Positions 14,491 through 32,010 of a DNA stretch of 37,916 nucleotides are shown in pieces. This DNA is from Halorubrum vacuolatum. Lineage in GTDB: Archaea; Halobacteriota; Halobacteria; Halobacteriales; Haloferacaceae. Position 1 is the stretch's first letter; every line of letters starts with the position of its first letter. The notes under the pieces were generated by a model. The model worked only from the letters and a program-made list of their open reading frames with translations, searched no databases and was not told where the DNA came from. Where the stretch lies: NCBI RefSeq assembly GCF_900188065.1, contig NZ_FZNQ01000022.1, positions 1-37,916 of the forward strand, in the 5' to 3' direction. The translations under genes were made by a program, and so were the position numbers.

Positions 14491-14563
14491 GCCGACGCCG
14501 GGATTTGAACCCGGATACCGACCGTGACAGGGCCGGATGCTCACCGGATTACATCACGTCGGC
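14491..14563 (-). tRNA. tRNA-Asp (anticodon GTC)
   Basis: 73 bases: acceptor GCCGACG/CGTCGGC, D-arm ATGT-AATCCGGTGA-GCAT, anticodon stem CGGCC/GGTCG with loop CTGTCAC, T-arm CCGGG-TTCAAAT-CCCGG. Discriminator G, the aspartate identity base. Reads GAC and GAT. Confidence 0.92.
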
Positions 14564-14576
14564 ACGCACATGTGAT

Positions 14577-14651
14577 CGCCCCGGCCGGAATCGAACCGGC
14601 GGCCTCTGGATTCAAACTCCAGCGTCCCTCGCCAGCGGAGACTCCGGGGCT
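14577..14651 (-). tRNA. tRNA-Gln (anticodon TTG)
   Basis: 75 bases: acceptor AGCCCCG/CGGGGCG with six pairs and an open A-G end, D-arm GTCTCC...GGGAC, anticodon stem CTGGA/TCCAG with loop GTTTGAA, variable loop AGGCC, T-arm GCCGG-TTCGATT-CCGGC. It reads CAA. A weak first pair is compatible with a Gln tRNA. It is the first tRNA of the array. Confidence 0.82.
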
Positions 14652-15523: not shown

Positions 15524-17293
15524 ATGGCCACCCATACCGATCAGTTTGCGTCGATGACAAGACACGCGAACAAAGACCGTGTAGATGAATTTACGTCTTT
15601 CAATCCTTCCGCTACCGACGACATCGTCATTTCACACCCTAATGGTGGACGATCTGAGATTGAGCTACAGAAACCATTGCTCGTAGCGATGGCACGAGAA
15701 AACAAGTACGAACCCTGTAGTGACGAGACCGATGGCGACGAATGTGTGGATCGGATTTTCGATGAAGCGCTGTGTGACGTCGCTGAATTAGCGCTGGACA
15801 CTGCAGGGCTAAATGAGAATCTGGTTGCTCTCCCGAAGTTACGTGCATTGATGATTCGTGTGGCCCGAAATCTCGACTCATTTGAAGAACTATCCACGCA
15901 TATTTCACAGTACTCGCCTGAAGAAATCGAGGATTTCGGGCTACACACGGCCTATGGGACATCAACGTATACGAAAGCAGCGAAAAAGCTGAGAAAGGAA
16001 GATACGTTCGAATTATTGATTGAAGCGACCTTCATCACTGTTCACGCGCTGTTCTGGAACGGAGTTCCGATCCCAGAGTCAGTCAAAAATCAGTATGATC
16101 TGTCGTACGATGCGGGACCTGCAGCGTCCGATTTTTCTAGAGGGACGCGACAATTAGCGCTGTATACTCTTGCTGAGGACTTGATTGAGATTGTTGTTTC
16201 GAACCTTGACTTTCAGCGAAGCGCCAATAAATCACGGGAACTCAGGAGTCTACTCGGAGTTTTTGCCCATGCTGCGTACAACGGAGAAAGCATCGAGAAT
16301 TACGATCAGACTGCCCAGCACTCGTTCGAGCTCGATTCTGCATTCAGCGGACCAACCATTCGTGAACATATCGATGGTCTATACCTGTGGCAGATCGAGG
16401 AAATGTTCGACGACATCAATCAGGCGCTACTCGAATACGTCATCGACTCGGGGATCGTATCCCGACCTGTTCTGATCTCGTATGACCTCACGAACATCCA
16501 AAGTCTCGAACTTGAGGAATACGATGAGTCATTTCTCACCGAGGATGGCCGCTGGCGATTTGTGTCCCTTTCATTCACAGACCCTGATCTCGAATTCGCA
16601 TTCGGACTCCGACTGCTCAAATCAGAAGCGCAGCGGGCACGCGTGCTAAAGAACTTCCTTCGAAGCCTGACCTCAATGGCGGATGTAGAACTGTTGATGG
16701 CCGATCGAGGATTTGATGGCCGGGAAGACATCGAAGCCTGCCGGGCGTTCGTTCCAGGTCGCTGGGTAATCCTTGCACAAGACTACAGCGACACCCGCGA
16801 CGACGACTATGCAGAGCTCCGTGAAGAACTCAAACCTGGCGGAACCGCTGTTGTCCAAGACGCAGGATATGAGAATCTTCACCCTCCCGTTCGGTTGATC
16901 GGATACTCTGGGAGCACAGATGATACTGTCGGACCAGTACGGGCATTTTACACTGACATGGATGTTCCGTCCGACAAAGAACAACAGAAGGAGCTGATCA
17001 CGCAGATCAATTTCCGGTACAATCAGCGAGCGAAAATCGAATCGATGTTTCGAATGGCCAAGAACGCGTTCGACGTCTCCACCGATACGGACAAAGCAGC
17101 GCGGAAATCCTTCTACTTCCATATGTCCGTCCTGTTCTACAACCTGTACAAGATCGTTAACACCGTGCCCGCACCGAATAACGGGCTCGAACTCGACACT
17201 ACTCAGAAGGAGCTACTCGAAGTCATCCGGAACCTCGCTTTTCGCGGACCAACTCGCCCCACCGCACTCACGTACCTGTTGGAACATTCGTAA
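15524..17293 (+). CDS. DDE transposase-like protein (IS4-type fold)
   Basis: 589 residues. The catalytic triad of an IS4-like RNase H-fold transposase is visible: Asp321 in LISYDLTNIQ, Asp394 in LLMADRGFDG, and Glu506 in YNQRAKIESMFRMAKN. The last is followed by the KSFYFHMSVLFYNLY helix typical of this group. The N-terminal 300 residues are long and helical and probably bind DNA. The gene is more A+T-rich than its neighbours, a sign of transfer. Its TAA shares one base with the ATG of a PCNA-like gene (TAATG), so the two are translationally coupled. No convincing terminal inverted repeats were found by eye, so whether this is a complete mobile element is open. A domesticated role is possible. 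Confidence 0.8.
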   Translation: MATHTDQFASMTRHANKDRVDEFTSFNPSATDDIVISHPNGGRSEIELQKPLLVAMARENKYEPCSDETDGDECVDRIFDEALCDVAELALDTAGLNENLVALPKLRALMIRVARNLDSFEELSTHISQYSPEEIEDFGLHTAYGTSTYTKAAKKLRKEDTFELLIEATFITVHALFWNGVPIPESVKNQYDLSYDAGPAASDFSRGTRQLALYTLAEDLIEIVVSNLDFQRSANKSRELRSLLGVFAHAAYNGESIENYDQTAQHSFELDSAFSGPTIREHIDGLYLWQIEEMFDDINQALLEYVIDSGIVSRPVLISYDLTNIQSLELEEYDESFLTEDGRWRFVSLSFTDPDLEFAFGLRLLKSEAQRARVLKNFLRSLTSMADVELLMADRGFDGREDIEACRAFVPGRWVILAQDYSDTRDDDYAELREELKPGGTAVVQDAGYENLHPPVRLIGYSGSTDDTVGPVRAFYTDMDVPSDKEQQKELITQINFRYNQRAKIESMFRMAKNAFDVSTDTDKAARKSFYFHMSVLFYNLYKIVNTVPAPNNGLELDTTQKELLEVIRNLAFRGPTRPTALTYLLEHS

Positions 17294-18048
17294 TGCCCAT
17301 TCACATAGCTCCCACGACCCTCCGTGAGACGATCCGCCCTGGATTAGCCGTGCGAAAAATCGGGGACTGTTGTGTCGATGTTGGCCCAAATCTGGTCCGA
17401 CTACGCGTTCAATCAGAGGACAAAACCGCGTATATGAACTACGAACTCCTACCACAGTCCGTGGATTCTTTGCTCACCAGCAAGTCAAGCAGTTTCTGGA
17501 TCCGTCTTGAACCCATCAAAAACTTCCTGGACGTAGGTACCAGTGAGGAGGTTTCCGTCTCTTTCCCCTTCGAAACGACCGATGCCACAATGGTTCTCCA
17601 GTCTGCTGGTCTCAGATACCGATTCCCATCAATAACACCTGTCTATCGGGTATTCGATAAACCGTCCTATGATGCCGTAACCACAGTCTCGATCCAACAC
17701 CGGCCGTTCGATCGCGCCGTCCAGGTAGCAAATCTCGTCGGAGAAGAAATGCATGTCAGTGTGGTCCCAGATGCGCGACGGGTTGAATTTTCTGCTAAGG
17801 CCGGGGACGATAGTGATTCATTCTCGTACTCGGTTCCTGACGAACAAATCAGCAGCATCTGTGGGAGCGCGTCATCACTCACCATCTCAATTGATCGGCT
17901 CCGGGATATCACACCACTCATTCCGGACACCACTTCCGCATCACTCCAACTCACTCGTCATTGCCTCATCTATCAAGTCGAATATCCCATCTCAGGAGCC
18001 GAGCTGACTCTGTATATCGCAAAGCGACACGGCCTCATTCAAGGGTGA
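17293..18048 (+). CDS. PCNA-like sliding clamp encoded with the transposase
   Basis: 251 residues, almost exactly PCNA length (about 247). The two-domain clamp pattern is visible: MPIHIAPTTLRETI at the start of domain 1, FDRAVQVANLVGEEMHVSVVPD at the start of domain 2 (helix followed by strand), FSAKAGDDSDSFSYSVPD, and SSLTISIDRLRDITPLIPDTTS before the final strands ending YQVEYPISGAELTLYIAKR. These correspond to the PCNA motifs for the inner helices and last beta hairpin, but the sequence is divergent from chromosomal haloarchaeal PCNA. Clamps encircle DNA and tether polymerases, nucleases and some transposases. The one-base overlap with the transposase gene suggests the clamp serves transposition or repair of its insertion site. 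That role is inference. Confidence 0.75.
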   Translation: MPIHIAPTTLRETIRPGLAVRKIGDCCVDVGPNLVRLRVQSEDKTAYMNYELLPQSVDSLLTSKSSSFWIRLEPIKNFLDVGTSEEVSVSFPFETTDATMVLQSAGLRYRFPSITPVYRVFDKPSYDAVTTVSIQHRPFDRAVQVANLVGEEMHVSVVPDARRVEFSAKAGDDSDSFSYSVPDEQISSICGSASSLTISIDRLRDITPLIPDTTSASLQLTRHCLIYQVEYPISGAELTLYIAKRHGLIQG

Positions 18049-18103: not shown

Positions 18104-20407
18104 TCAGCCACCAAGCAACCTCGAAAGGATTCCCCGCGACTCATCTCCGTCGGGTGTTACCTCTGCTTCAGACGCCTTGTCGGTAGTCCCATCGACCTCC
18201 GCAGGCCCGTCCAGTAGTTCATCAACTGAGTAACCGACCCATTCGGCGAACTCCTCAGGCGCGCCGATATAGACACTTGTCCCGGACTTATCCGACATGA
18301 ATCGCTTGTCCAGCCGCTTCTCGTAATCGTAGACCTCCCAGTCCTCGCGGTCGAAATCAGCATTGATCCCGTCGGGTTCCGACTCGAAAGTGACGCGACC
18401 ACCTTGAATGTCTCGCTGCCACTTTATTCGGCCCGTGTCGTACATTTTTTCTGCCGGTTGATCCGCAGGGAAGTACTCCGGCTGTTTTCGATCGGCCTCT
18501 TCGTAGAACTCACAGAAGATTCGGCGGACATCTTCGACAGTACCGCTCCCTTCAGTCCAGGGCTGCTTGGTGAGCATCCGACGAGCGACATAGCTGAAAA
18601 TGGGATTTTCTCGTTCAAGCACCTCCGCCAAATCCTCTTGAGCGTCGTGGAATCCGGGATCCTCAGGATTCGATGGGAACGAGACATCCATGCTGAGGAT
18701 TTTCATCCGGTTCCGAAACTCCGATTTGGGGAGTGCGTCGTTAGTGGTGAAAATCAGGCAGGGCTGATCGACACTGGTTGGTGTCCAATCACCCCAGTAG
18801 TTCCGAATCGGACTCCATTTCTCGATTTTACTCTTTTCGGCGTCGATGATCGCATACGGGAAGCACGTGTCCCATTCCCGAATACCACGAATCTCCTCGA
18901 CACCCACATCGTCAGCATCGACACCGGACACGACAGTGTTGTCTGATAGTAACCGTAGGATGTACTCAGTGAGCTTGTCTTTTCCAGCATCGCTGTTACC
19001 TTCGATGTACAGATGCTGAAGGACGTTGTCAAGCGTCCGTGAGGGGGAAGAGAGCTCATTTGCGTACTGATTAGCGAACGGAGCCCAGAACCCGTAGAGG
19101 AAGGCTTCGTACATCTGGGCCATCACCGCGTCGGGCGTCTGGGTGTAACCGTGGTCCCGGACCGTCTCGACGTACGCTTCGATAGTGGCGAGGCAGTGAT
19201 CCAGCACTTCCGGGGTCGGTGGATCGGTTGCCACCAAGATCATGTCTTCCTCATCGCCGAGGACAACCTGATCAGCTTCAGGGATAACGGACATTTTCGG
19301 GATCTTGGTCGATTCTCGGACCTGGCTGTTGTACGCACTCAGGGGTGCTGTGATGCTGTGATCCTCGACCGTTGCTCCCCGATTTCGGAGACTGGCTCCG
19401 AATTCATCGGCGACATCCTTATCGATCTTACTCGTCCCCATCCGAATTTTCTCCTCTGGCGTGCGAACCCGAGGTCGATCTAGCGTATCCGTGAGCGACG
19501 TCTCGTGATCAGATTCAACGAGACCGACATCAGGAGATTCTTCATCTGCCTCCTTGTCTCCGGATTCATCGGCTGAATCGTTGCCGTCACCGGTGTCGCC
19601 GTCCTCATCTGCGCCATCAGGCTCGATGATTGTCCGGTCGGCCTTCTCCGGTTCATCGATGAAGGCCACAGTTTCATCGGCTGACTCGGGATCGTCCACG
19701 ACAGCCGTGACCTGGTCGGCGATATCTTTCAGGTCTTCCGTCGCGTCTTGGTTCAGCGCGGCCGTATCGCTCATATTTAGGTCGCCAGTTCCGACCCAGT
19801 ATTCGATACGGTCTTCTCGCTCTTCGGGAGAATCTGCCTCTTCGAGCGCTTCAACCAAGCCCTCAAGGAGCGTCTGATTGCTGTAGCGTTCCCGGTATTC
19901 ATCGATGAACGCCGCAAACTCCTCATCTAATTCTGTTCCGACTTCCGTCGTGAATATCGACACCTGGTTCGTGTGATACTCCCATGAGTTCACTGAAAGA
20001 TTCGCCGACCCATGAACTAGTTTCACCGTGTCATCCGGCATCACGATCCGGTAAATTTTGGAGTGGACGATCTTCCGATTCTTCAGCCGAATCGTCAACC
20101 GGTCATCCTGACGGAGCCGAACGAGTGACCGTGCCGTCGAAACGTCATCAACCTGATTGGCGTAATCGTCGGCGTTCCCCACGAGTACGTCAAGTGAACC
20201 GACATCGTACTCCGTCAGCATCCGAACCATCAACTCCGGTGTCTCAGCGTACGTTATTGCATCAACGTGACGAGCACCCTCGAAGAGCTCCAAAAAGTCT
20301 TCTCGCTGTTTCACCATTGTCAGACGGTAGCCGGCTGCACCGGAACCGTAGAACTCGGGCATGTCCGCGAACTTGTCAAACGAAATGTTCGCTGTGATTT
20401 CGTCCAT
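18104..20407 (-). CDS. PLD-type nuclease fused to an AAA/superfamily-3-like ATPase
   Basis: 767 residues. The N-terminal domain has one HKD-type site: His115-Ser-Lys117 in IVHSKIYRI, followed by VHGSANLSVNSWEYHTNQ (Gly-Ser-x-Asn at 133-136). This points to a PLD-fold nuclease working as a dimer. An acidic linker (about 240-320) follows. The C-terminal part has a P-loop EGNSDAGKDKL (469-479), a Walker B-like strand YAIIDAEK (518-525) and the IFTTND sensor (552-557), resembling primase-associated or superfamily 3 helicases. It is the last gene of the Mre11-Rad50-NurA-HerA operon, 114 bases after HerA. Coupled PLD nuclease and motor domains are common in antiviral systems, so a role in defence or DNA end degradation is likely but not proven. 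Confidence 0.75.
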   Translation of the reverse strand: MDEITANISFDKFADMPEFYGSGAAGYRLTMVKQREDFLELFEGARHVDAITYAETPELMVRMLTEYDVGSLDVLVGNADDYANQVDDVSTARSLVRLRQDDRLTIRLKNRKIVHSKIYRIVMPDDTVKLVHGSANLSVNSWEYHTNQVSIFTTEVGTELDEEFAAFIDEYRERYSNQTLLEGLVEALEEADSPEEREDRIEYWVGTGDLNMSDTAALNQDATEDLKDIADQVTAVVDDPESADETVAFIDEPEKADRTIIEPDGADEDGDTGDGNDSADESGDKEADEESPDVGLVESDHETSLTDTLDRPRVRTPEEKIRMGTSKIDKDVADEFGASLRNRGATVEDHSITAPLSAYNSQVRESTKIPKMSVIPEADQVVLGDEEDMILVATDPPTPEVLDHCLATIEAYVETVRDHGYTQTPDAVMAQMYEAFLYGFWAPFANQYANELSSPSRTLDNVLQHLYIEGNSDAGKDKLTEYILRLLSDNTVVSGVDADDVGVEEIRGIREWDTCFPYAIIDAEKSKIEKWSPIRNYWGDWTPTSVDQPCLIFTTNDALPKSEFRNRMKILSMDVSFPSNPEDPGFHDAQEDLAEVLERENPIFSYVARRMLTKQPWTEGSGTVEDVRRIFCEFYEEADRKQPEYFPADQPAEKMYDTGRIKWQRDIQGGRVTFESEPDGINADFDREDWEVYDYEKRLDKRFMSDKSGTSVYIGAPEEFAEWVGYSVDELLDGPAEVDGTTDKASEAEVTPDGDESRGILSRLLGG

Positions 20408-20521
20408 TGTTGGTGCCGTGTTCAGTGATTTGAGGGTTGCTTTTATCGCGGTTTCTCCAGGCTCGCACCCTGCAGGGCGGCTCCGCAGTGTTCTTGGCTT
20501 GGCTTCATCATTTCCCCCTGA

Positions 20522-22165
20522 TCAGTCGAGGCTTTGCACCCCCGTCGAATCGCCCTCTCCGAAGTCCGCGCTCTCAGAACGCGTCGGTTCGCGCTGACGA
20601 GCGTCGTAGGCTTCTCGCCACTTGTCTATGACATCTAGGCTACCAGCACCGTGTTCCGTTCGCCGGGGTCGCACCTGAATCAGCGCTGGTGTGTTCATCG
20701 CGTCACCGGAGACGATCGCTTGCCCTGGTGTCAACCCAGGAAGTTCGCGGAGAACGTCTTCGCCAGCGGCTTCGACGGACTTTTTAATCGCGTCTTGGTC
20801 GTTCGGATTCCGGATTTTCATCGAAATCTGCGTCCCGCACTGGGAGAGAACGTCCTGGTCGATCTTCGATGGTCGCTGACTTATAATACCGAGCCCGAAC
20901 CCAAACTTACGGCCTTCAGAGGTGATCGTCCGCATAATTCCGAGCGAGGGAGCGTCACCCGATGTCGGAGCGAATCGATGCCCTTCTTCGAACAGGGCGA
21001 AGACCGGGTGCTCAACCTCGGATTCCCGACCACGAACATCGTTGAGCCGTTCCCGATAGAGACGGCGCAGGAGGACCGTTGTGATTAGTTGCTGATCGCG
21101 GCGGTCGAGTGTATCCATTTGGAGCACGGTACACTGTCCCGGGTCGATGATTTCGTCAAGCGGAACGTTCTCCTCTGGATCGAACAAGTCGTTACGCTGA
21201 ATTGATCGTCGAAGCCGCCACTCCAATGCGCCGACGCTGGCGTCATTACCGCCGAACTCGCTCCGCATTTCAGTCATAAGATCATCGATGCCCCACGTTT
21301 CGCTTTCTTGGTTCTGCATAGAGCGCCATGCCGTCGAGAGGCGGTCCTGCATCCGGTTACTCGGGTTGTCCAAGATCGCCATGACGTCGCCAATCTCCAG
21401 TTCGGAAATCCGGACTTGGAGGCGCTCAGGGTCGTAGTAGACGACGTCCGGTTCGTATCCGTCTTCCTCGCGGAAGGATTCGTGACCTTGCATCTCGGCC
21501 AAGGTGTCGTACTCGCCATGCGGGTCAAACACGAGGAGCGACGCCCGCGACGTCGGGCGCATCATCTCTTCGATCAATACCGACGCTGTGTAGGACTTCC
21601 CGCTCCCTGTGGCCGCGAGGATTGCCAGATGCGTTGAGGCGAATTCTTCGATGGGGATGTGAATGTTCGTTGCCCGCTCAGGTCGGTTCAGCAACCACCC
21701 GATATGGGCAACGCCATCAAGCTGGGTTACTTCGGTCTCGACCGTGTCGCATCCGAGGTTTGGGAGCACCGTTTCGAGTTGTCCATCCGGTGCGATCGAC
21801 AGTGGTGTTCCTGGGTCCGGAAGCTGCCGCGGGTTGGCAAAGGTCTCCATATTGGTATTGTAGAACCCGATGACCGTCGCTGTCATCCGGTACAGTTCCG
21901 TATCGTCAGTTGGTACTCCGAGTGTAGCAGCGACTGTTTCGGGTCCAACTTCCGGATCTGCAAGGAACCCTTCTGGGAGTCCCCGAATGAGTTCTCGGTT
22001 CGTCACCCGGGCAAACACCGACCGACTCTCGCCGTCTACTGTCACGTCGTAGGTGATGAACTCGCCCGTTTTGATCGGCTGGTCGGCCGGAGTTACGAAT
22101 ATGAACTCGTTTGGATCCTCGCCCGGACCGGCGACCGTCCCGATCACTTCCTCGTGTCCCGGCAT
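20522..22165 (-). CDS. herA: HerA-like DNA translocase
   Basis: 547 residues from the ATG at 22165. The N-terminal HAS-barrel is visible (VIGTVAGPGEDPNEFIFVT, then GEFITYDV). The RecA-like core has Walker A ATGSGKS (residues 185-191), Walker B FALFEE (389-394) and IISQRPSKI (428-436) as the conserved Arg-containing motif. HerA hexamers pump DNA into NurA nuclease and work with Mre11-Rad50 in end resection. The preceding gene's stop overlaps this ATG as TAATG, with a G-rich ribosome site just before it. A frame start at 22198 is less likely. Both its context and its partners match the archaeal mre11-rad50-herA-nurA cluster. Confidence 0.88.
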   Translation of the reverse strand: MPGHEEVIGTVAGPGEDPNEFIFVTPADQPIKTGEFITYDVTVDGESRSVFARVTNRELIRGLPEGFLADPEVGPETVAATLGVPTDDTELYRMTATVIGFYNTNMETFANPRQLPDPGTPLSIAPDGQLETVLPNLGCDTVETEVTQLDGVAHIGWLLNRPERATNIHIPIEEFASTHLAILAATGSGKSYTASVLIEEMMRPTSRASLLVFDPHGEYDTLAEMQGHESFREEDGYEPDVVYYDPERLQVRISELEIGDVMAILDNPSNRMQDRLSTAWRSMQNQESETWGIDDLMTEMRSEFGGNDASVGALEWRLRRSIQRNDLFDPEENVPLDEIIDPGQCTVLQMDTLDRRDQQLITTVLLRRLYRERLNDVRGRESEVEHPVFALFEEGHRFAPTSGDAPSLGIMRTITSEGRKFGFGLGIISQRPSKIDQDVLSQCGTQISMKIRNPNDQDAIKKSVEAAGEDVLRELPGLTPGQAIVSGDAMNTPALIQVRPRRTEHGAGSLDVIDKWREAYDARQREPTRSESADFGEGDSTGVQSLD

Positions 22166-22830
22166 TATACCACCCCCCGTCGCTCGTGTGCCTGCCATTC
22201 AACGTTTTGCTCAACGACGTCCAACACGCGTTGATTTGGATCTTCGTTCGGCAAGACACTCCGCAGTCGGTCAATCAGGGCGACGATAACTTCGGCACCG
22301 AGATCGCCTGCGATATCGACGAGGCGGTCAATGTATGCCAACTGTATTTGACCGTCGATGGTGTGGAACGACGCAGTAATTTCGTCCGGACAATGATAGA
22401 CTGTATCGTCTACTTCGAGCGTCCAGCGAGGCATGCGATGCGTGGGGTCAGTGATGGTCCGATCCTCGTTGACCGTTGCAGTCCCGAGGAGTGCGACGCC
22501 AGCTAGGGTCGTGCGCTCTTCGATGTATCCGGGAGTGAACTGGGCTTGATCGTCCTGGGCTAGGCGCGGTCCGGTTCGTCCCTGGTCCGGATCGACCAGT
22601 TGTGTATCGTAGATCACGCCCATCACCGCGTGTTCCGTCCCATCAATCGTCTTTTTAATGAAGACTGGTTGGCCGAACTCGCGTTCGCTGAGTTTCGGCG
22701 GACGCTCGCAATCACGATCTTTGTACACCTCAACGACGTAATCGAGGTGGCTGTTCGAAGACACGATACTCCCGATTTGGACGCACGAATCGACATTCGC
22801 GGTCTCCATCTCTGTTGTTTGGTCTGTCAT
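22165..22830 (-). CDS. Small protein coupled to HerA, unrecognised
   Basis: 221 residues. The N-terminus (VGSIVSSNSHLDYVVEVYKD after correcting for the exact reading CVQIGSIVSSNSHLDYVVEV, residues about 16-35) looks like the opening strands of a HAS-barrel, the domain found at the start of HerA. The middle (DGTEHAVMGVIYDTQLVDPDQ) and the C-terminal helices (IQLAYIDRLVDIAGDLGAEVIVALIDRLRSVL) have no known motif. Its stop overlaps the HerA start, so the two proteins are made together. It may be an accessory subunit of HerA that uses the same barrel fold to bind the nuclease. That is inference from sequence pattern and position. Confidence 0.7.
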   Translation of the reverse strand: MTDQTTEMETANVDSCVQIGSIVSSNSHLDYVVEVYKDRDCERPPKLSEREFGQPVFIKKTIDGTEHAVMGVIYDTQLVDPDQGRTGPRLAQDDQAQFTPGYIEERTTLAGVALLGTATVNEDRTITDPTHRMPRWTLEVDDTVYHCPDEITASFHTIDGQIQLAYIDRLVDIAGDLGAEVIVALIDRLRSVLPNEDPNQRVLDVVEQNVEWQAHERRGVV

Positions 22831-22897
22831 GTGTTCGTTCGGTGGTTGAGGGTGATTGGCCGCTTTATGCTCTCGTCAGTTGTTCCATGGTGTGCTG

Positions 22898-24163
22898 TCA
22901 TCGTCGGCGGAGTTCTTTGCTCAGTGCCTTGGCATTCCACTCGACCGGCACATCGTTGGATTCGGCCCACCGCTGAACGATCCGGTGGAATTGTTGCCGG
23001 TCTTGGTGGTCGAGAACTGCGTCGCTGTCTGCTTGCTGGAGGATTTCCGGATACCCTCGTCCGATTCCTGCTTCAGCACGCACGATCTCAACGGTGTACT
23101 CGTACATCGAATCATACCCATCGGGCCCATCGCTTTGACAAAGCCAGCCAGGAAACTCGATCCGATCGAGACCTGCCCCGGGCGGAACGTTCAGGTATGT
23201 AAAAAGGATGTCATCACGGAACTCGTACGACTTGCCCTCGTACGTTGTCTGTAAGGCATCGATGCTCCCATCGCGTTTCGAGATGAACGGGATCGTCGTA
23301 TCTCCCCACGGACTCATCAAGTCCGTCAGGACGTGTGCGTCCGGAATGACGCGATCCGTCCCGAACTCCTCGCGCAACAGAAGCCGTGTCATCTTCACTA
23401 ACTCCGTTGCGTTCGATCCAGCGACGTACCCGACCAACGGAATTCGATGGTGCTGACTCGCCGCAATCACGCGACTGAGCGTCGAAATGTACCGCTCGCG
23501 GGTCTCCGGCTTCAACGGGTTCGCAAACGAAGCGATCAGCGGACCGTCGTAGAAGACGACCGGCGTGTGCTCGATGTCATCGCTCTCACGGGCCTCGGCA
23601 AGTTCGACGATTTGATCGATGAGCAACCCTCCTTCGTGTTCGAACCGGTGATGTCCGACGAGTTGTGAATCGACGAATCTGTAGTCTCCATCGTCTGATT
23701 CCCGCGTAACCTCATCGGGTGTCAGCAACCGACCTTCGACGCCACGGTCGAGTCGCCCTTCTGTGTGGTGATAGTTGACCGACCACGCTGCCTGAACATA
23801 CGCGAGCGGAACGTTGAATTCAGTCGTGGGGGGTAACTGTGACCCGTCTACAGCCATGACGGGAACGTCACGAAGGATGTCACGTGCCCACTCATTGACC
23901 TCTTCGTGATTATCCCACGCATCGCTCTCCGTATGGGGAACGACAATGCTGTCAATCTGGTCGAACTCGTCAGTTGGGTACGCTCCTGGATAAGAGGTAT
24001 CTCGTAGGGCGGCACGGATCTCCTCACTCGACCATTCCTTGGGTAGGCGCTGGAACGCGTCTTTATACCGGTCAGCGATTCCCGGTTCGTCTTCCAGATA
24101 CGCCTCAATCGTCTCGACGCTCGACTCTAACTCGGCAGCGACATCGTGTTTGTTGATCGTCAT
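22898..24163 (-). CDS. nurA: NurA-like 5'-3' nuclease
   Basis: 421 residues. The NurA domain (PF09376) is indicated by VMAVDGSQL (metal ligand Asp106), VVFYDGPLIASF (Asp206) and the later conserved YVAGSNATELVKM with its Lys. These are the hallmarks of this RNase H-like nuclease. The first 100 residues are helical and specific to this group. NurA forms a dimer that sits on the HerA hexamer and degrades DNA fed through it. The ATG overlaps the Rad50-like stop by one base (TGATG), so production is coupled. The length is close to the usual 350-430 residues. Confidence 0.85.
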   Translation of the reverse strand: MTINKHDVAAELESSVETIEAYLEDEPGIADRYKDAFQRLPKEWSSEEIRAALRDTSYPGAYPTDEFDQIDSIVVPHTESDAWDNHEEVNEWARDILRDVPVMAVDGSQLPPTTEFNVPLAYVQAAWSVNYHHTEGRLDRGVEGRLLTPDEVTRESDDGDYRFVDSQLVGHHRFEHEGGLLIDQIVELAEARESDDIEHTPVVFYDGPLIASFANPLKPETRERYISTLSRVIAASQHHRIPLVGYVAGSNATELVKMTRLLLREEFGTDRVIPDAHVLTDLMSPWGDTTIPFISKRDGSIDALQTTYEGKSYEFRDDILFTYLNVPPGAGLDRIEFPGWLCQSDGPDGYDSMYEYTVEIVRAEAGIGRGYPEILQQADSDAVLDHQDRQQFHRIVQRWAESNDVPVEWNAKALSKELRRR

Positions 24164-26880
24164 CAGTTCACGGTCACCTCCGACGCCTGCTGGTCCTTGC
24201 TCACAGAGATAGTGTAGTCCGTCATCGAGTCAAACGTCTGGTCGTGACTGATGACTGTGAGCTGCTCGAAGCTATCCAACTGCTTCAATTGCATCACGAG
24301 GTTCCGCTTCTTCTGCCGGTCCAAGTTCGCCGTGGGCTCGTCAAGGAATGCGATCCCGACCGACGCGAGCTGTTCGAGAATGGCAAGCCTGACCGAAAGC
24401 GCAGCCGCCATTTTTTCGCCGCCGCTCAGGGTCGAGAACGACTTCCGCACATCCGCGTCGTGAACGAGGATCTCGTAATCGCTCGTCCACTCTAGCGTCT
24501 CAGTGGATGTGCCACGGATCGATCGGAACAACTCGTTAGCACGTGCCCCGAGTCGATCCGTGATGATTTCGCGCATCTTCGGCCCGGCTTCCCGGACGTT
24601 CTCCCGGACCCACTCTGCGAACTGCTGGTCCGCTTTCAACTCTTTCAACTGCTGGAGCTTCTCCTGGCGCTCCTCCAATTTCGACTCTAACCGTTCGACC
24701 TCCTCGCGGACCTCCTCTAGCTCGTCCTCTTTGTGTTCCAGTGTCCGACGGTCGCCCGCAAGATCGCTCTTGAGGTCCTCTATTTCGGAGCCGAGCGTTT
24801 CCATTCGGTCTTCATCGAACGACTCCTCCGCCTCTTCGAGTTCGGTTTCCGTCTCATCGAGTTCCGTTCGAAGCCCCTCCAGTTCGGACTGCAACTCCTC
24901 GACGGTTTCTCGCCGCTCCTCAACTTGGGCGGCTTGCTGCTCGTGCTTGATGTAGGTCTGGTATCCCGACTTGGTCTCTTCTATCGTTGTTTTGACCTCA
25001 GCTAACTCATCGTCGAGACCCTCGTACTCGGCTAGCTCCTCTTCGATTTCTTCGAGGGCCTCTCGTTCATCCCGTAATTTCTCGCGTTTGGTCTCCAATC
25101 GGTCGGGGACGTCGCTGAGGTCTTCCACTCGGACCTCGGCCTTTCGGTACTCTTCGTGCGCTTCTTCCAACTCGTCGCGTTCTGATTTGAGTTCAGGGAG
25201 CTCTGCTAAGTCCTCTTCCAGCGCCTTTCTCTCTTTCGTCGTTTCTTCCTTTTCTGACTCCAGGTCTCCGACATCCTCTTCGAGCGAATCAATCCGCTCC
25301 CGCAGAACAGGGATTTTTCCAACACGTTCCTTGACTTCCTGCGCTTCCTCACGGCGGTCACGTAATTTGCTGAGTTCGTCACCGAGTTTCTCACGCTGGG
25401 TTTTGATTTCTTCAATTCTATCCTCGCGCTCCTCGATCGTCTCGGACCGATGTTCTTCGTCCAGCGGCCGGTCACAGGTCGGACACGGCGCATCGACGTC
25501 CGTATCGCGTAACCGTTCCAACTGTTCTTCGAGTCGCGCACGCTCCGATTTGAGTTGCTTGCGCTCGACTTCCAGCTCATTAATCTCAGCAGTGAGCTCT
25601 TCGGGGTTAGTGGTCTCGTCCCACTCCTTCTTGATTTCCGTGATCTCCGTCTGCAACGACTCGACGTCGCTCTTCTTTTCGTCGATTTCACTAGTGAGCT
25701 CTTCGACACGCTGCTCTAACTCTTCGACCTCGTCCTCGCGGTCTCGCAACGACTCTATCCGATCATCCAGTTCCTCGTATCGCTCTTTCTCGTCTTCACG
25801 GGTTTTCAGCGTTTCTTGAGCCGACTCTAACGTTTCTAAATCCGACTCAAGTTGGTTAACCTCGAACTCTATTTCTTGAATCGTGTCTTCCTGCTCATCC
25901 CACTTTGCTTCGAGTTCGTCACGCTTCTTTTCCTGCTTCTCTAATTCATCGAGTCGGTCATTTGCCTCCCGATGACGGCGGCATTCGTCACGATTCGCCT
26001 CGCACTTCTCTTGAGCATCCGCGGCCGCTTCAAGTTCCTCTTCAGCGGTTTTCAACTTGCTCTCGGTCGCACTAATCTCTTGGTTTAGAGACTTGATCGC
26101 CTGGTTGAGGTCCTCGATCTCCTCTTGGATCGATTCCAAGTCATTGTATTCTGACTCCTTCTGTTCCAGTTCGCCGCTTTTTCGGTCGATTTCGGCTTCG
26201 AGTGATTGGACCTCCGCAGCGAGTGACTCTGCGGTGTTCCGCTCGTCTGGAAGACCCTGTACTTCGGTCGTGAGACCGATGATATCGTCACGAAGATCCC
26301 GCTGCTGTTTTTCGATTGCGTCCGGGATGTCCTTCAGTGCCTCCCACGACTCTTCATACGCATCGAGATTCAGTAACGCATCGAACGTGTTCTTTCGATT
26401 GCCTGGCCGCTGCGCGAAATCGGACAGGAAGCGTGTCTGTGGTACACCGATACATGACTCCCACAACCCCTGTAGCTCATCTTTGCCCGCGACGTCGAAT
26501 CGGGCACACAACCAGCGAATCAATTCTTTCTTCGAGTCGATATCCTGATCGACCCACTCCTCAGTCTCGGGGTCGTACCGATGCACACCATAATTGGAGC
26601 GTCCGGCCGACCGAGTTACTCTGAACTGCTCGGTCCCGTTCTGGGTTTCTTGCTCAAACACCACCTCAACAGTCCCCGAGTTCGCCCCTTCTCGCACGAA
26701 GTCCTTGATGTTGACACGCCGTGGGAGGGAATCAAACAGCGCAAACCCGATCGCTTCCTGGATCGTCGATTTCCCAGCCCCGTTCTCGCCGAGGATTGCC
26801 GTTACACCCCCCTCAATGGGTACTTCAGTCCGGCCTTCGTAGGATTTGATGTCTTCCAACGCGACCTGTTGAATCTTCAT
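24163..26880 (-). CDS. Rad50/SMC-like ATPase with zinc hook
   Basis: 905 residues. The N-terminal P-loop is GENGAGKST (31-39) in a Rad50-type start (MKIQQVALEDIKSYEG). Two long coiled coils, extremely rich in Glu, Lys and Arg, flank a zinc hook Cys-Pro-x-Cys (CPTCDRPL near residues 466-473). The C-terminal head has the ABC signature TLSGGEKMAAALS (about 815-827) and Walker B IAFLDEPTANLD (about 842-853). Length and order match Rad50. It pairs with the Mre11-like gene just upstream, with a gap-free ATGA overlap to that gene's C-terminal frame. It is more divergent than a housekeeping Rad50 and likely belongs to this accessory cluster. Confidence 0.9.
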   Translation of the reverse strand: MKIQQVALEDIKSYEGRTEVPIEGGVTAILGENGAGKSTIQEAIGFALFDSLPRRVNIKDFVREGANSGTVEVVFEQETQNGTEQFRVTRSAGRSNYGVHRYDPETEEWVDQDIDSKKELIRWLCARFDVAGKDELQGLWESCIGVPQTRFLSDFAQRPGNRKNTFDALLNLDAYEESWEALKDIPDAIEKQQRDLRDDIIGLTTEVQGLPDERNTAESLAAEVQSLEAEIDRKSGELEQKESEYNDLESIQEEIEDLNQAIKSLNQEISATESKLKTAEEELEAAADAQEKCEANRDECRRHREANDRLDELEKQEKKRDELEAKWDEQEDTIQEIEFEVNQLESDLETLESAQETLKTREDEKERYEELDDRIESLRDREDEVEELEQRVEELTSEIDEKKSDVESLQTEITEIKKEWDETTNPEELTAEINELEVERKQLKSERARLEEQLERLRDTDVDAPCPTCDRPLDEEHRSETIEEREDRIEEIKTQREKLGDELSKLRDRREEAQEVKERVGKIPVLRERIDSLEEDVGDLESEKEETTKERKALEEDLAELPELKSERDELEEAHEEYRKAEVRVEDLSDVPDRLETKREKLRDEREALEEIEEELAEYEGLDDELAEVKTTIEETKSGYQTYIKHEQQAAQVEERRETVEELQSELEGLRTELDETETELEEAEESFDEDRMETLGSEIEDLKSDLAGDRRTLEHKEDELEEVREEVERLESKLEERQEKLQQLKELKADQQFAEWVRENVREAGPKMREIITDRLGARANELFRSIRGTSTETLEWTSDYEILVHDADVRKSFSTLSGGEKMAAALSVRLAILEQLASVGIAFLDEPTANLDRQKKRNLVMQLKQLDSFEQLTVISHDQTFDSMTDYTISVSKDQQASEVTVN

Positions 26881-27588
26881 TGGGTAGTCACCTCCTCTGG
26901 ACGGTCATCGTCGGCAGGACGTTCCTCGTCACTGCTCTCCTCCGGCGCATCTGATTCCTCCTCATCACGGAAGGGGTCCTCGTCGATATCGACAACTACG
27001 TTATCGGCTAATTCGGGGAACAGGTCCCGTCGTGCGGAGCTGACCGTATCAGAGATGTCCTCGACCGCCTCCTCGGCCTGCGCCATTTCGTGAGCGTTCC
27101 CCAGTATGTCTGCGACGTCTTCTGCCTTCTCAGCATACATCGACTCTTTCGCAATCGTCTCGAACACCTGGTCTTCCAACGCCGCTGTGTTCAATTGCCC
27201 ATCCTTGAACACGTCCTCTTCATCGATCTCTGAGATGAGTTGCTGCACATCTGCCGTCCGGATTCCACCTGCGTTCTCTTGCACGTACAGCGCATCACAC
27301 GCCTCTTCAGCATACGCAGCGAGTTCGTCAGTCCGGAAGTCGCCACGACTGAACTGAAGTGTCCCCGTGAACCGTAAGTCAAGAATCGGCCGACGCGGCT
27401 CACCTTCAGCCGTGTATTTCGGTTGCTGACAGTATTCTTGGACAGCTCCGACCTCGGCCTCGATCTGCTCGCGGAACGCTGATTCGAGTTCACCCGGCGA
27501 GTCGTGTGGGGTCACGTCGAACTCGATACGGTAGTACGGTCGGCGCTTGGTCTCGTGGTGTGCTATCTCAAAGCTGCACTCCCCCCCC
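26877..27588 (-). CDS. C-terminal part of the Mre11-like protein, in another frame
   Basis: This frame continues the Mre11-like protein after the eight-G tract at 27581-27588. It opens with GECSFEIAHHETKRRPYYRI followed by EFDVTPHDSPGELESAFREQ, which is the layout of the Mre11 capping domain (a beta-hairpin then a long helix). It ends with an acidic tail (DEDPFRDEEESDAPEESSDEE region). There is no good start codon of its own near the shift; an open frame extends to an ATG at 27752, but that part lies inside the upstream gene. Removing one G would fuse the two frames into a protein of roughly 500 residues. It overlaps the Rad50-like ATG by four bases. Confidence 0.7.
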
Positions 27589-28395
27589 ACCAGCGCCGCT
27601 CTCACCAGGCGAAAGCTCGACCGAGTAGTAACCGTGCTCCCACTCATCACGACCTTCGCGGGTGCTGTGTGCCTCCGGTGAGCCTGGATTGTAAATCCAC
27701 TCACCGGCCTTGTACCGCTTGTGGATGTGTCCGAGCGCGAGGTAATCGACAACTTCTTTCACATCCCGCAGTTCGGCGTGAGTGACTGTCCCGCCCAGCG
27801 TCGGAACTTCGTCTTCCATACCGAAATGCGCCAGCAGCATTGTGAACGCTGGCTCGCCGTGAAGTTCATTCGCTGTGCGAATCCCGTTCGCCACTTGTTG
27901 GAGCGCTCGATCCGTCTTCGCACCCCGCCACTGTAGTCCGAACACGCGAACGGGGCCATCGAACGCCTCGCTCTCGATATCGTAAAAGCCCGCGTAGTTC
28001 CCTGGATCTTCGCGGTCGTACGGCTCGAACCGAACGGTATCAGGATCGGCCGACAGATCGGCTTTCAGGAACACGATATGCCCGCGCTGGTGGAGGTAGT
28101 TTAGCCACGTGACGTCTCGTGGCGTCAGGTTTTCGTCGTGATTGCCTCGTGAGACCAGCACAGGCACATCGTCTGGAACGCGACTGAGTTGCTGTTCGGC
28201 CTGATGCAGGACCTTCGGGCGGAGGTCCCTGGAGTGGAACAAGTCCCCGGGTAACACGATAGCGTCCGTATCGTGGTGCTCCACCATGTCCCCAAGCGCG
28301 GCTTGCAGGGTCGATACCATGTCATCCTCTCGCTGTTTCAACCCGTATTGCCGGTGGCCAAGGTGTGTATCGGCAATGTGTGTGACTGTCAGCAT
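27568..28395 (-). CDS. Mre11-like phosphodiesterase, truncated by frameshift
   Basis: 275 residues. All five calcineurin-like motifs are seen: HIADTHLG (Asp9, His11), VLPGDLFHSRDL, VSRGNHDE, LLAHFGMED and LALGHIHK. It is therefore an Mre11-type manganese nuclease core. The frame then runs into eight Gs (27581-27588) and ends at a TGA giving the unnatural tail GGGGVQL; the expected capping domain follows in another frame. The gene is the first of a six-cistron minus-strand operon and is divergent from the AAA ATPase at 28477. The frame break is either a real mutation, a sequencing indel, or a slippage site. The nuclease domain itself is complete. Confidence 0.85.
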   Translation of the reverse strand: MLTVTHIADTHLGHRQYGLKQREDDMVSTLQAALGDMVEHHDTDAIVLPGDLFHSRDLRPKVLHQAEQQLSRVPDDVPVLVSRGNHDENLTPRDVTWLNYLHQRGHIVFLKADLSADPDTVRFEPYDREDPGNYAGFYDIESEAFDGPVRVFGLQWRGAKTDRALQQVANGIRTANELHGEPAFTMLLAHFGMEDEVPTLGGTVTHAELRDVKEVVDYLALGHIHKRYKAGEWIYNPGSPEAHSTREGRDEWEHGYYSVELSPGESGAGGGGVQL

Positions 28396-28476
28396 GTTCC
28401 CTTTGACACTACCACGGTTCGTCTAACAAGTTTTAATAGTTTTGGGTTAGCAGGATAGTTTGAGGCGTTGGAACTG
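28396..28476. promoter_or_regulatory. Divergent promoter region
   Basis: 81 bases separate the Mre11-like ATG and the AAA ATPase ATG. The A+T-rich ttttaata at 28431-28438 reads as a TATA-like box in both directions. It lies 36 bases from the minus-strand ATG and 39 from the plus-strand ATG. A shared control region for both operons is plausible. Confidence 0.45.
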
Positions 28477-29592
28477 ATGGACCCGACCAACGGCGACGAG
28501 AAGAAAAAACGATTTCAGGAGGCCTTCGAACGTGGGCGAGACGGCCACGTCGGCAGTTACAACGTCTGGCTGGAGAACCACGGTTTCGATCCCAGTCGCG
28601 TGGACCGCGACAAGGTCACGGAGTTTTTCCGAGAGAACCCGACCAAATCCGTCAATCAAGACGACGTGACGGATATTGCAGAGTATGCAGGTTTCGTTAC
28701 AACCAGACAAGATCTGCATCACATCCCCGTTATCGGCCCGTCCGGAATCGGGAAAACACAGTTACTTCACACCGTTATCGGCCTTCTTTCCGAGGTTGAC
28801 GATGACATCGATACAAAACTACTTGAAGCGAACCGCCTCGGCAAGAAGACCGAAGACGGATTCCTTCTCGACGAGTACAGCCGTCAAATTGCCGAACTCA
28901 CTACCCCAATCGTGTGTATTGACGATTGCGGGTTAGATAAGCGAATTCGAACATCACTTCGAGAGCTCCGCGACGCCGTTGACGCTGGGTTGTTCGTGAC
29001 TACCTGGACACCGGAACGATGGGGCGTCAACCAGGATCAAGTTCGAGATGTCTTCTCACCCGCGAAGGAGGTACATCTCCGGTCATTTACACAGTCTGAA
29101 ACGAAGGGAACTCTCCGAGTCATCTACGACTACATCTCCCAAGACAACTTCGCTCTGCCGTCGAAAACAGAGGAGCGGATTCACGAACTTAGCGACGGTA
29201 TCCCCCGATTGATTCATCTCCTTGCGCTGGAGTCACTTCGAGAAGCCTACCACAAGGAGTTGGTGCCAGGACATATTTCAGCGACGGACGCAGCTGCTGA
29301 TCGGCTCAATCTGAGTAACGCAAGTGCGCGGGTACAGGATCTGTCGGAGGCGAGATTGACCGTCCTCAAACAGATTCTTCAGCTTCCCGATGAACGCGGC
29401 GTGCAACCTGGCACGCTGGTGGACGAGCTTCATCGAGACAAGTCCACAATTTCCTACCATCTCCGCGAGCTGAACGAGATAGGATTTGTAGAACGGGATC
29501 GGAAAGGGAGGCGGGCATTCTATCGCGTAACAGAGACGATCGAACCGCTCGTTCAGCGCCGAATTAGCCAGGAGGCAGAATATAATGCCTAG
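28477..29592 (+). CDS. AAA ATPase with C-terminal winged helix
   Basis: 371 residues from the ATG at 28477 (a TTG nine bases upstream is possible). P-loop PVIGPSGIGKTQLL (Gly87 to Thr94 region) and Walker B PIVCIDDCG (145-152) define the ATPase. The segment SDGIPRLIHLLALESLREA looks like the helical lid with sensor 2. The last 80 residues form a winged helix (LTVLKQILQLPDERGVQPGTLVD, then STISYHLRELNEIGFVERD). The layout resembles Orc1/Cdc6-type or STAND-type switch ATPases. It is divergent from the Mre11 operon and overlaps the next gene by eight bases. It could be the regulator or the sensor of the neighbouring cluster; no direct evidence. Confidence 0.75.
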   Translation: MDPTNGDEKKKRFQEAFERGRDGHVGSYNVWLENHGFDPSRVDRDKVTEFFRENPTKSVNQDDVTDIAEYAGFVTTRQDLHHIPVIGPSGIGKTQLLHTVIGLLSEVDDDIDTKLLEANRLGKKTEDGFLLDEYSRQIAELTTPIVCIDDCGLDKRIRTSLRELRDAVDAGLFVTTWTPERWGVNQDQVRDVFSPAKEVHLRSFTQSETKGTLRVIYDYISQDNFALPSKTEERIHELSDGIPRLIHLLALESLREAYHKELVPGHISATDAAADRLNLSNASARVQDLSEARLTVLKQILQLPDERGVQPGTLVDELHRDKSTISYHLRELNEIGFVERDRKGRRAFYRVTETIEPLVQRRISQEAEYNA

Positions 29593-30302
29593 CTACAAGC
29601 TCGCACCAATACCGGACGACACTATCGCCATCGAATCGCTCAAAGAGAGGATCGAAGCCACCTCGGCGTTCAATTCCGATGCCGAGCTTCGGAGCGGAAT
29701 GCTTCCACAGACATTCACCGAAGGAGCTGATGGGCTATGCTGGGCAGAATACGGACGAGAAACGTACTACGACCGAATGACACTCGAAGGTCCGGTCGAA
29801 ACGAAACACGCCAAGCGCTACGAAGTCATCGTCCTGCAAAACGGGTACATCGCCATAAAAAAAGAGCACTAAAAAAGTCGAGCAGGAAATCCTCACAACG
29901 TCAACAGCGGTCCTGGACAATGATGTGAAGCTTGAGACATTGGAATTCGATGAGGATGACCTTCGAACGGTCATCGAGGAATCGAACCGAGTGCAGCGCG
30001 TCGATGTCTCTCCGACCAGTATCGAAGGGCCGGATCACATTTCAGCGCATGACCGGGGAGACCTCCGCGATACTGACTGGTGGGACCAGCATCTGGCGGA
30101 TCCATTCGAGCAAGTTCGCGTCGTTCTTCCACACCGCAACGTACATGTTGATGTTGGATTCGATGATACCGGCCGGATCACCCTCTACGGGCGCGAAATA
30201 GAAATGCCGATCCAGGCAGAAGCAATGCGGTACTTGACAGACGAAATCATCGATAAATACCGAGATCCAACTGAATTTCAGGGCACGCTCAACGGGTACT
30301 GA
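29585..30302 (+). pseudogene. Unrecognised gene frameshifted at seven As
   Basis: From the ATG at 29585, which overlaps the ATPase stop, 95 codons are read to a TAA at 29870-29872. Just before it, seven As (29857-29863) occur. Dropping one A continues without a stop as AIKKSTKKVEQEILTTSTAV, then LDNDVKLETLEFDEDDL, to a stop at 30302. The result would be about 238 residues of uniform acidic composition. A start at 29925 (GTG) could give the last 125 residues alone. I treat it as one gene with an indel, or a slippage site. No family was recognised; the sequence is mixed alpha-beta. Confidence 0.6.
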
Positions 30303-30460: not shown

Positions 30461-32008
30461 ATGACGAAACAAAGCTCCTCCGCGAATATCCAGTCCGATA
30501 CGTTCGAGTTGCTCACACTCCCGTCAATCACGCTCGAACACGTTTCACAACCCGCGGTTCGAGACGCCGTTCAATACTTCGACCCTGATCTCATCACGAT
30601 TCCCGGTCCTCGAAATCCCAAGGCACACGCATCAGTCCGCGATACCGCTTCGAACTCTCCGGTAGTCCACCCACAGCTTTCCCAGGGAGGTCGCCACATC
30701 CAGCACTATCGATACACCGCCGACACCGGTCTCCACGAGGCACCGAATAGTGCCCCACCGGCTGAAACGATCGACGTTATCGCCGTCCAAACCCGTGACC
30801 TCCTTGGACGACTCCACGCACAATTGATCTCCGACGAGCGTCACACTGGCAGCGACGCTGCCACGTTCGTAATCGTCCCACAACTTACCGTAGAGTGGGA
30901 CGCAGCATCCCTCTCGACCACGCTTCCCAGCGCTGCGGACCTTGCTGCACTCGCGGCCGCACTCCCTGAACCGGTTACGATCTTCGCTGGCGGCCAACCG
31001 GCAGAATACTACCACGAATGGGACTTACAACACGACCACACCGCCGTTACGGTCCCAGTCGCTGGACTCGGCGCGACGGAACGGGATGGATCACAGTTCG
31101 CCCAGTATGCATGCACGACACACGGACGAGTCGCAGCGGAAGCCGTAGATCCCGATGAGTTCGGTCTCCGAGCCCTCAACGGCATCGGACAGGCAACCGC
31201 CACACGGTTACAGCAAAGCGGATGTCGGACCGTCGAGGACGTTCGAAATCTCGCCGTCAGTGACCTGACGGACCTCTCCGGCATCGGACGAACGACCGCT
31301 GAACGAATCCACGCACACGCCGACGTGCTCGACTCCGCCGAGCCGCTCGTGCTAACCAACAAAACGCCTGTCAAAACCCGCGATGACCGCCCGCCGCTCT
31401 GCATTGACATCGAAACGGACGGCCTGTCACCGACTATCATCTGGCAGTTTGGTGTCTACGACCCGGCGACCGACACGCATCAAGCGTTCGTCGAGAAAGA
31501 TGACCCCACAGACCCGGAGCCAGTTCTCGAAGCCTTCATCACGTGGCTGCTCGCAAACCACGACGATCGAACCCTCTTGGCGTGGAACGGGCACAAGTTC
31601 GATTATAAATACATCACGCAGTTCCTCCAGCAATACCTCCCCGAATACGTGGATGCCTGGGACGACGTCTGGACATACGATCTGTACAAGTGGGCAATCC
31701 GCGACGAGAACGCGCTGCTTCCCGGGCGAACAAACAAGCTAGACCACGTCGCCCGCGCCCTCGGCTACGACTCCGCCGGCACGGGTCTCACCGGCGCACA
31801 AACGGCAGCCGCCTATCAGGCGTTCATGCGGAACCCGGAGGGGTCAGCCAGTGAACCAGACTGGGAAAGACACGAACAGTACTGCGAAGACGATTGCCGA
31901 GCACTCTGGCACGTTTACCATGCTATCCTCGATGCACCCCGCCGCGACGTGACCGACAGCGGAACAGGCGGTGCATCCGGCCAACAAGCAGGCCTCACCG
32001 ACTTCTAA
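30461..32008 (+). CDS. MrfB-like RNase H-fold exonuclease with helix-hairpin-helix repeats
   Basis: 515 residues. Two tandem helix-hairpin-helix motifs are visible: LRALNGIGQATATRLQQSG (about 237-254) and LTDLSGIGRTTAERIHAHA (about 269-287), which bind DNA without sequence preference. The exonuclease domain follows: CIDIETDGLSP (Asp316, Glu318), LAWNGHKFDYKYI (Asn376, Asp381), WTYDLYKW and YCEDDCRALW (Asp near 478), the DEDD pattern of the YprB/RNase_H_2 family. The N-terminal 230 residues are unassigned. Two bases separate it from the helicase gene. In Bacillus the equivalent pair, MrfB exonuclease and MrfA helicase, repairs mitomycin-type damage; I infer a related job here. Confidence 0.82.
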   Translation: MTKQSSSANIQSDTFELLTLPSITLEHVSQPAVRDAVQYFDPDLITIPGPRNPKAHASVRDTASNSPVVHPQLSQGGRHIQHYRYTADTGLHEAPNSAPPAETIDVIAVQTRDLLGRLHAQLISDERHTGSDAATFVIVPQLTVEWDAASLSTTLPSAADLAALAAALPEPVTIFAGGQPAEYYHEWDLQHDHTAVTVPVAGLGATERDGSQFAQYACTTHGRVAAEAVDPDEFGLRALNGIGQATATRLQQSGCRTVEDVRNLAVSDLTDLSGIGRTTAERIHAHADVLDSAEPLVLTNKTPVKTRDDRPPLCIDIETDGLSPTIIWQFGVYDPATDTHQAFVEKDDPTDPEPVLEAFITWLLANHDDRTLLAWNGHKFDYKYITQFLQQYLPEYVDAWDDVWTYDLYKWAIRDENALLPGRTNKLDHVARALGYDSAGTGLTGAQTAAAYQAFMRNPEGSASEPDWERHEQYCEDDCRALWHVYHAILDAPRRDVTDSGTGGASGQQAGLTDF

Positions 32009-32010
32009 CC

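Follow-up and report, generated by a model that had tools for sequence, protein, structure and literature searches.

The Halorubrum vacuolatum contig NZ_FZNQ01000022.1 (C20; 37,916 bases, analysed in its entirety and called the window below), part of a 3.48-Mb haloarchaeal draft genome in 72 contigs, encodes an accessory, transferred Mre11-Rad50-NurA-HerA module in which the motifs of Rad50, NurA and HerA are intact, and which is linked to a homologue of the nuclease AgaP and, in some relatives, to Argonaute. The module probably destroys or processes foreign DNA, as a defence by DNA destruction. Its genes lie on the minus strand from 28395 to 18104 in the order mre11, rad50, nurA, a gene for a protein of 221 amino acids (aa) designated orf221, herA, and a gene for a 767-aa PLD-ATPase:

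27568..28395, minus strand: accessory Mre11, N-terminal part, 275 aa (PF00149, E 9.2e-11; NF041030, 53.7 bits against a cut-off of 550)
27581..27588, minus strand: run of eight G on the coding strand (C8 on the plus strand), site of the mre11 frame shift
26877..27752, minus strand: Mre11 C-terminal part in another frame, 291-aa open reading frame, aligning to the C-terminal half of relatives' Mre11
24163..26880, minus strand: accessory Rad50, 905 aa (PF13476, E 3.9e-16; NF041035, 159.2 bits against a cut-off of 1000)
22898..24163, minus strand: NurA nuclease, 421 aa (PF09376, E 4.7e-24, 85.7 bits against a cut-off of 21)
22165..22830, minus strand: predicted stand-alone HAS-barrel protein with a helical C-terminal part, 221 aa (AlphaFold2 model and Foldseek)
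20522..22198, minus strand: HerA translocase, 558 aa (PF01935, E 2.7e-36, 126 bits against a cut-off of 23.2)
18104..20407, minus strand: fusion of a PLD nuclease with an MCM/Cch-like AAA+ helicase, AgaP homologue, 767 aa
28468..29592, plus strand: AAA ATPase with a winged helix (AAA-HTH), divergent from mre11
29585..30302, plus strand: two small open reading frames of 95 and 125 aa in the same cassette as AAA-HTH (66-82% identity in Argonaute-carrying relatives)

Pfam matches and motifs confirmed the six genes that a preliminary description of the window had named. The Mre11 metallophosphoesterase motifs DTH, GDL, GNHD, HFG and GHIH are all intact in the 275-aa part; Rad50 contains Walker A and B motifs, a CPTC zinc hook, the LSGGE signature, FLDE and ISHD; and HerA contains ATGSGKS, FALFEE and SQRP. 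With PF01935 and PF09376 above their cut-offs, a HerA/DUF87 ATPase with Walker motifs adjoins a NurA-domain protein, the arrangement that defines a HerA-NurA pair. The order mre11-rad50-nurA-orf221-herA is conserved in relatives with overlapping or touching ends: mre11 and rad50 overlap by 1-4 nucleotides in 38 of 38 scored loci, rad50 and nurA touch in 37 of 37, and orf221 and herA touch or overlap in 36 of 36. The description of one coupled operon is thus accurate for the tight series from mre11 through herA, but not for the PLD gene, which had been taken as the operon's end. Because it is separated from herA by 114 nucleotides in the window and is co-directional, convergent, upstream or far off in relatives, the PLD gene is a linked partner of the five-gene core and not its fixed last cistron.

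Relatives have one uninterrupted mre11 open reading frame, mostly of 460-540 aa, whereas the 275-aa frame of the window stops just past the poly-G run and the C-terminal part resumes in the other frame. The resulting 291-aa frame was rejected as a separate gene between mre11 and rad50 on its alignment to the relatives' single frame. As causes of the shift, assembly error, a real frameshift and slippage are indistinguishable from this sequence.

The 221-aa protein matches no Pfam family by sequence. When its AlphaFold2 model (mean predicted local distance difference test score 83.9) was compared with the PDB by Foldseek, 44 of the first 48 matches were named HerA and 4 'bacterial protein' (E 4e-6 to 8e-3), and the HerA matches span the barrel plus helices. 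The modelled protein is best described as a stand-alone HerA-type HAS-barrel protein, which may be an adaptor for HerA or NurA.

The genome was examined for other Mre11-Rad50 sets, since the preliminary description, which proposed a separate, mobile version, had conceded that the genes would be the housekeeping set if no other copy existed. On contig C43, Mre11 scores 625 bits and Rad50 1218 bits, both exceeding the haloarchaeal equivalog cut-offs (550 and 1000 bits), which the window proteins miss by far under the same models (53.7 bits with NF041030 and 159.2 bits with NF041035). The window set is therefore accessory, and its identification as the housekeeping set was rejected. A housekeeping-type Rad50 is also present in 17 of 17 tested relatives, each with the accessory core. 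The same genome carries on contig C23 (L080 8038-19900) a third, divergent 'type II' set of mre11, rad50 (1102 aa), NurA (426 aa) and HerA-like (670 aa) genes, which adjoins an AddA-like helicase-nuclease; type II sets adjoin a PLD-helicase in G065, G003, G343, G011 and G242.

A search for the gene order in other haloarchaea found NurA of the window type in 40 of 391 Halobacteria genomes, with the 221-aa gene adjoining nurA in all 40; the five-gene core, present in these 40, is patchily distributed across several families, and the position of the PLD gene is variable. Some annotated copies of the core, though not many, sit on megaplasmids. The window NurA is 81-87% identical to NurA in genomes of four families, and among five congeners with this NurA, two are at 85-86% identity and three at 46%; by comparison, housekeeping Rad50 identity is 66-68% inside the genus and mostly 49-55% between families. 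Families are intermixed in the HerA tree (f4: 7 changes versus 7.5 when shuffled). Since NurA identity does not follow relatedness and the HerA tree mixes families, the core has spread by horizontal transfer between families. This patchy recurrence, together with the housekeeping pair on C43, bears out the proposal of a separate, mobile version. Carriage of the operon by viruses was rejected on searches in which phage records gave no NurA or PLD-ATPase match and viral contigs gave no relative of the 221-aa protein, the latter search reaching close relatives only.

The PLD-ATPase ties the core to Argonaute-associated nucleases. PF13091 and PF09565 are weak in the window protein but are matched by 25/25 and 24/25 members of its family, all 25 aligned members having PLDc_2. 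Residues 1-185 of its structural model match the PLD nucleases NgoAVII, SauUSI and Nuc. For residues 371-706 the match is to Cch, the SCCmec helicase (Z 13.4, root-mean-square deviation 4.5, 249 residues), ahead of SaPI and MCM helicases. H115, K117, S134, N136, G470, G475 and K476 are invariant among 33 homologues. As in AgaP, the N-terminal PLD domain has HxK (H115-K117) and a separate GSAN (133-136). Plasmid PLD homologues beside Piwi genes in Natrinema, Natrarchaeobaculum, Salinirubellus, Salinigranum and Halomontanus align with the window protein over its full length at approximately 29-35% identity, and in Natrinema pellirubrum the homologue next to such a Piwi gene is AgaP, which by itself is toxic, is kept silent by Argonaute and is required for plasmid restriction (Cheng et al. 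2024, PMC11442185). Alignment thus identifies the window PLD-ATPase as a full-length homologue of AgaP. The protein resembles the haloarchaeal APAP immune system, which pairs a long-A Argonaute with AgaP (PMC11442185), in this lengthwise alignment and in the invariant H, K, S and N of HxK/GSxN, but it was not assigned to APAP, because its genome has no detected Argonaute and 18 residues, instead of ~50, separate its HxK from its GSxN. Some Piwi-neighbouring PLD homologues also have the short spacing, and 22 of 93 PLD-helicase genes lie beside a long-A Argonaute (at <=500 bp), a position for which the window genome offers no counterpart. The haloarchaeal PbeABCD system (PMC6459918) likewise combines a PLD-helicase fusion with an SMC-like ATPase, but the PbeA helicase is Res/DEAD and not MCM/Cch-like, and the sequence match is marginal (E 0.005).

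Of the 40 core genomes, 27 also contain a PLD-helicase (Fisher test, odds ratio 10, p 8e-11), and in 18 of these 27 it is no more than 12 kb from the core, against a random-placement expectation of ~1% per genome; these linkage statistics, like that for Argonaute below, take account neither of shared ancestry nor of the general tendency of defence genes to cluster in islands. The PLD-helicase is downstream and co-directional in the window, G095 and G224, downstream and convergent in G151, G052, G295, G049, G214 and G370, directly upstream of mre11 in G223, G135, G334 and G141 (co-directionally in the first three), and upstream and divergent in G276 and G335. Core-linked PLD-helicases fall in two divergent subfamilies, which together with the varied arrangements argues for repeated association with the core. 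It is possible, though doubtful, that core and PLD-helicase serve defence independently and do no more than share islands, the PLD-helicase contributing nothing to what the core does: many loci have the PLD gene in a convergent or distant position, in the window it is 114 nucleotides from herA, and most genomes with a PLD gene have no core, but such independence sits poorly with proximity in 18 of 27 genomes, in several arrangements and from two subfamilies, and with the co-directional genes directly upstream of mre11.

Argonaute loci were sought with a profile built from plasmid Piwi proteins and counted class-wide with an 11-Argonaute profile, the Pfam Piwi model having missed the Argonautes of G095, G224, G151 and G373. 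Substantial Argonautes were found in 51 genomes, nine of which also have the core, and in six of the nine the Argonaute is <=7.1 kb from it (random placement p 6e-11). The catalytic tetrad is complete in 11 of 11 aligned long Argonautes. In G141 a single gene run encodes Argonaute, PLD-helicase, Mre11, Rad50, NurA, the 221-aa protein and HerA. In G068 an Argonaute gene with an in-frame stop precedes mre11, and in G014 a 164-aa Piwi remnant is directly upstream of it. G276 and G335 encode directly upstream of mre11 a divergent 762-aa Piwi protein (PF02171, E 3e-5, under the family cut-off) that retains three of the four catalytic residues, the fourth tetrad position not being conserved. The divergent 762-aa Piwi protein and a 275-aa partner, co-directional with mre11-herA, are located at L121 4128-7240 and L122 13357-16469. 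An Argonaute-sized 855-aa gene between herA and the PLD gene in G370 was excluded as an Eco57I-type methylase. Beside two other pairs of Argonaute and PLD genes, UvrD and PD-(D/E)XK genes occupy the position expected of the core.

The AAA-HTH gene divergent from mre11 belongs, in close relatives, to an Argonaute cassette (AGO - DUF2797 - g29925 - AAA-HTH), which in G095, G224, G151 and G373 consists of AAA-HTH, two small open reading frames, DUF2797 and Argonaute, divergent from the core. The window is exceptional in that it keeps AAA-HTH and the two small open reading frames (28468-30302) but has an MrfB/MrfA-like pair next to them. The window locus might be read as a decayed remnant that has lost Argonaute and DUF2797 and suffered a frameshift in mre11 at the 8-G run, as the presence of Argonaute beside the same AAA-HTH cassette in sister loci and the remnants in G014 and G068 would suggest. 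We consider such decay fairly unlikely: all other genes of the window are open and their motifs are kept, and a homopolymer error in a draft of 72 contigs explains the shift equally well.

The neighbourhood of the core is that of a defence island, richer in defence genes than random loci. In a comparison that tallies models and not proteins, 108 dereplicated proteins from core-operon flanks match 165 PADLOC families, whereas an equal number, also dereplicated, drawn from random loci in those genomes match 13 (1e-10); the flank matches include pAgo, methylases and Old- and AriA-like ATPases. The earlier suggestion that the operon may degrade invading DNA thus gains support from these flanks, from the homology of the PLD-ATPase to AgaP and from Argonaute genes in relatives' loci.

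Several points weigh against a defence by DNA destruction. Co-occurrence of core and Argonaute at genome level is not significant (p 0.08), and no Argonaute was found in the window genome with Pfam Piwi, one close Argonaute or the 11-Argonaute profile, although an assembly gap could account for this. Roughly half of the core operons lack a nearby PLD-helicase, most PLD-helicases occur without the core, mre11 carries a frameshift in this assembly, and the linkage and PADLOC statistics are to be read with the restrictions given above.

The most direct counter-proposal is repair. The four enzyme families form one transcription unit in the mre11-rad50-nurA-herA repair cluster of thermophilic archaea (Constantinesco et al., as cited in PMC7776575), and the window set differs from that cluster, as described there, in being accessory, patchy, located in a genome with a housekeeping pair, equipped with an extra HAS-barrel gene, and linked to PLD-helicase and Argonaute. 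An accessory set for double-strand-break repair or fork processing, serving mobile replicons or stressed cells as is thought of the thermophilic cluster, would have the same enzymes and clustering (PMC7776575, PMC12977600), intact catalytic motifs and some copies on megaplasmids, its defence neighbours being the usual company of mobile genes. This seems quite unlikely, given the housekeeping-type Rad50 already owned by the host and all 17 tested relatives, the recurrent linkage to an AgaP-like nuclease and Argonaute, and the strong patchiness and transfer between families. Bacterial HerA-nuclease defence systems (SIR2-HerA/Nezha, HerA-DUF4297) similarly pair a HerA translocase with a nuclease in defence surroundings, but the window nuclease is NurA, and Mre11-Rad50 is added. 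The window HerA falls far below the cut-offs of the curated anti-phage HerA models NF042943 (101.2 against 800 bits) and NF042944 (104.9 against 850 bits).

If the module destroys foreign DNA, Mre11-Rad50 would capture and trim DNA ends, blocked ones included, and a HerA hexamer equipped with the extra HAS-barrel protein and NurA would degrade both strands, which fits the digestion of both strands by HerA-NurA of T. kodakarensis, for which antiviral defence was suggested (PMC12977600). The PLD-helicase, as a second nuclease, would unwind the target and might be kept harmless by a partner until needed, like AgaP by Argonaute. In Argonaute-carrying relatives the module would make guides from, or finish off, Argonaute-cut DNA, as proposed for RecBCD in bacteria. 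Since no Argonaute was detected in the window genome, the module there would work by itself or answer to a different sensor, perhaps the AAA-HTH cassette. More tentatively, haloarchaea may possess a three-part immune system in which Argonaute provides targeting, an AgaP-type PLD-helicase acts as licensed nuclease, and Mre11-Rad50-NurA-HAS-HerA supplies guides or destroys targets, replacing RecBCD/AddAB; the single run encoding all parts in G141 and the UvrD and PD-(D/E)XK genes in the core's place elsewhere point in this direction.

No report of a link between Argonaute and the core was found in the open literature, subscription papers and preprints being outside that search, and the published work consulted on Argonaute contexts, including the main text of PMC11442185 on APAP, does not mention Mre11, Rad50 or NurA. 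Judged from gene content, the Argonaute link together with the core suggests an undescribed antiviral machine. The origin of prokaryotic Argonaute guides and the finishing of cut DNA are an open question, in which RecBCD is no more than a suggested helper, in bacteria; the repeated grouping of Argonaute, a nuclease partner and a full end-processing machine in genetically tractable archaea makes this question directly testable. Doubt has been cast on HerA-NurA as a resection enzyme (PMC12977600), and a defence role would be plausible for the pair if the present interpretation is true. HerA and NurA were stated to be absent from H. volcanii (PMC7776575) and not apparent in halophiles (PMC12977600). 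H. volcanii has a Pfam NurA match and hence a NurA-domain protein, and the published absence therefore concerns the classical HerA-NurA pair. The window set places HerA-NurA in halophiles.

Further features were noted in the window and beside core operons. In Natrinema zhouii and strain DL31 (L159 1519-7569; L160 1-5674), genes for a TerB-N protein (named from one record), an ATP-binding protein and a DEAD/DEAH helicase lie directly upstream of the core mre11, a three-gene set that is another recurrent partner cassette of the core; NurA of these two operons is 84% and 44% identical to that of the window. The MrfB-MrfA-like pair of the window (30461-34746, plus strand) consists of an RNase H-like/HHH nuclease adjoining a DEAD helicase with an MZB domain, and L087, which also has an Argonaute, and L131 contain a similar pair close to a PLD-helicase. 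Further along, at 35817-37838 (plus strand), is a gene for a 673-aa protein whose C-terminal part weakly matches the EVE domain; L074, L080 and L124 contain partial homologues, in L124 beside a core operon. On the other side of the module, 15524-18048 (plus strand) encodes an ISH3/IS1380-like transposase (below the family cut-off), followed directly by a 251-aa protein whose similarity to PCNA, the DNA sliding clamp, is weak. An array of as many as 14 tRNA genes (by ARAGORN; 9 pass the Rfam threshold) is located at 10870-14651 (minus strand) around a TROVE/Ro60-vWA gene (10970-12547). This tRNA/Ro60 cassette recurs on haloarchaeal megaplasmids at 72-78% DNA identity, and Halogranum tailed virus 1 encodes a relative of its Ro60 protein at 44% identity.

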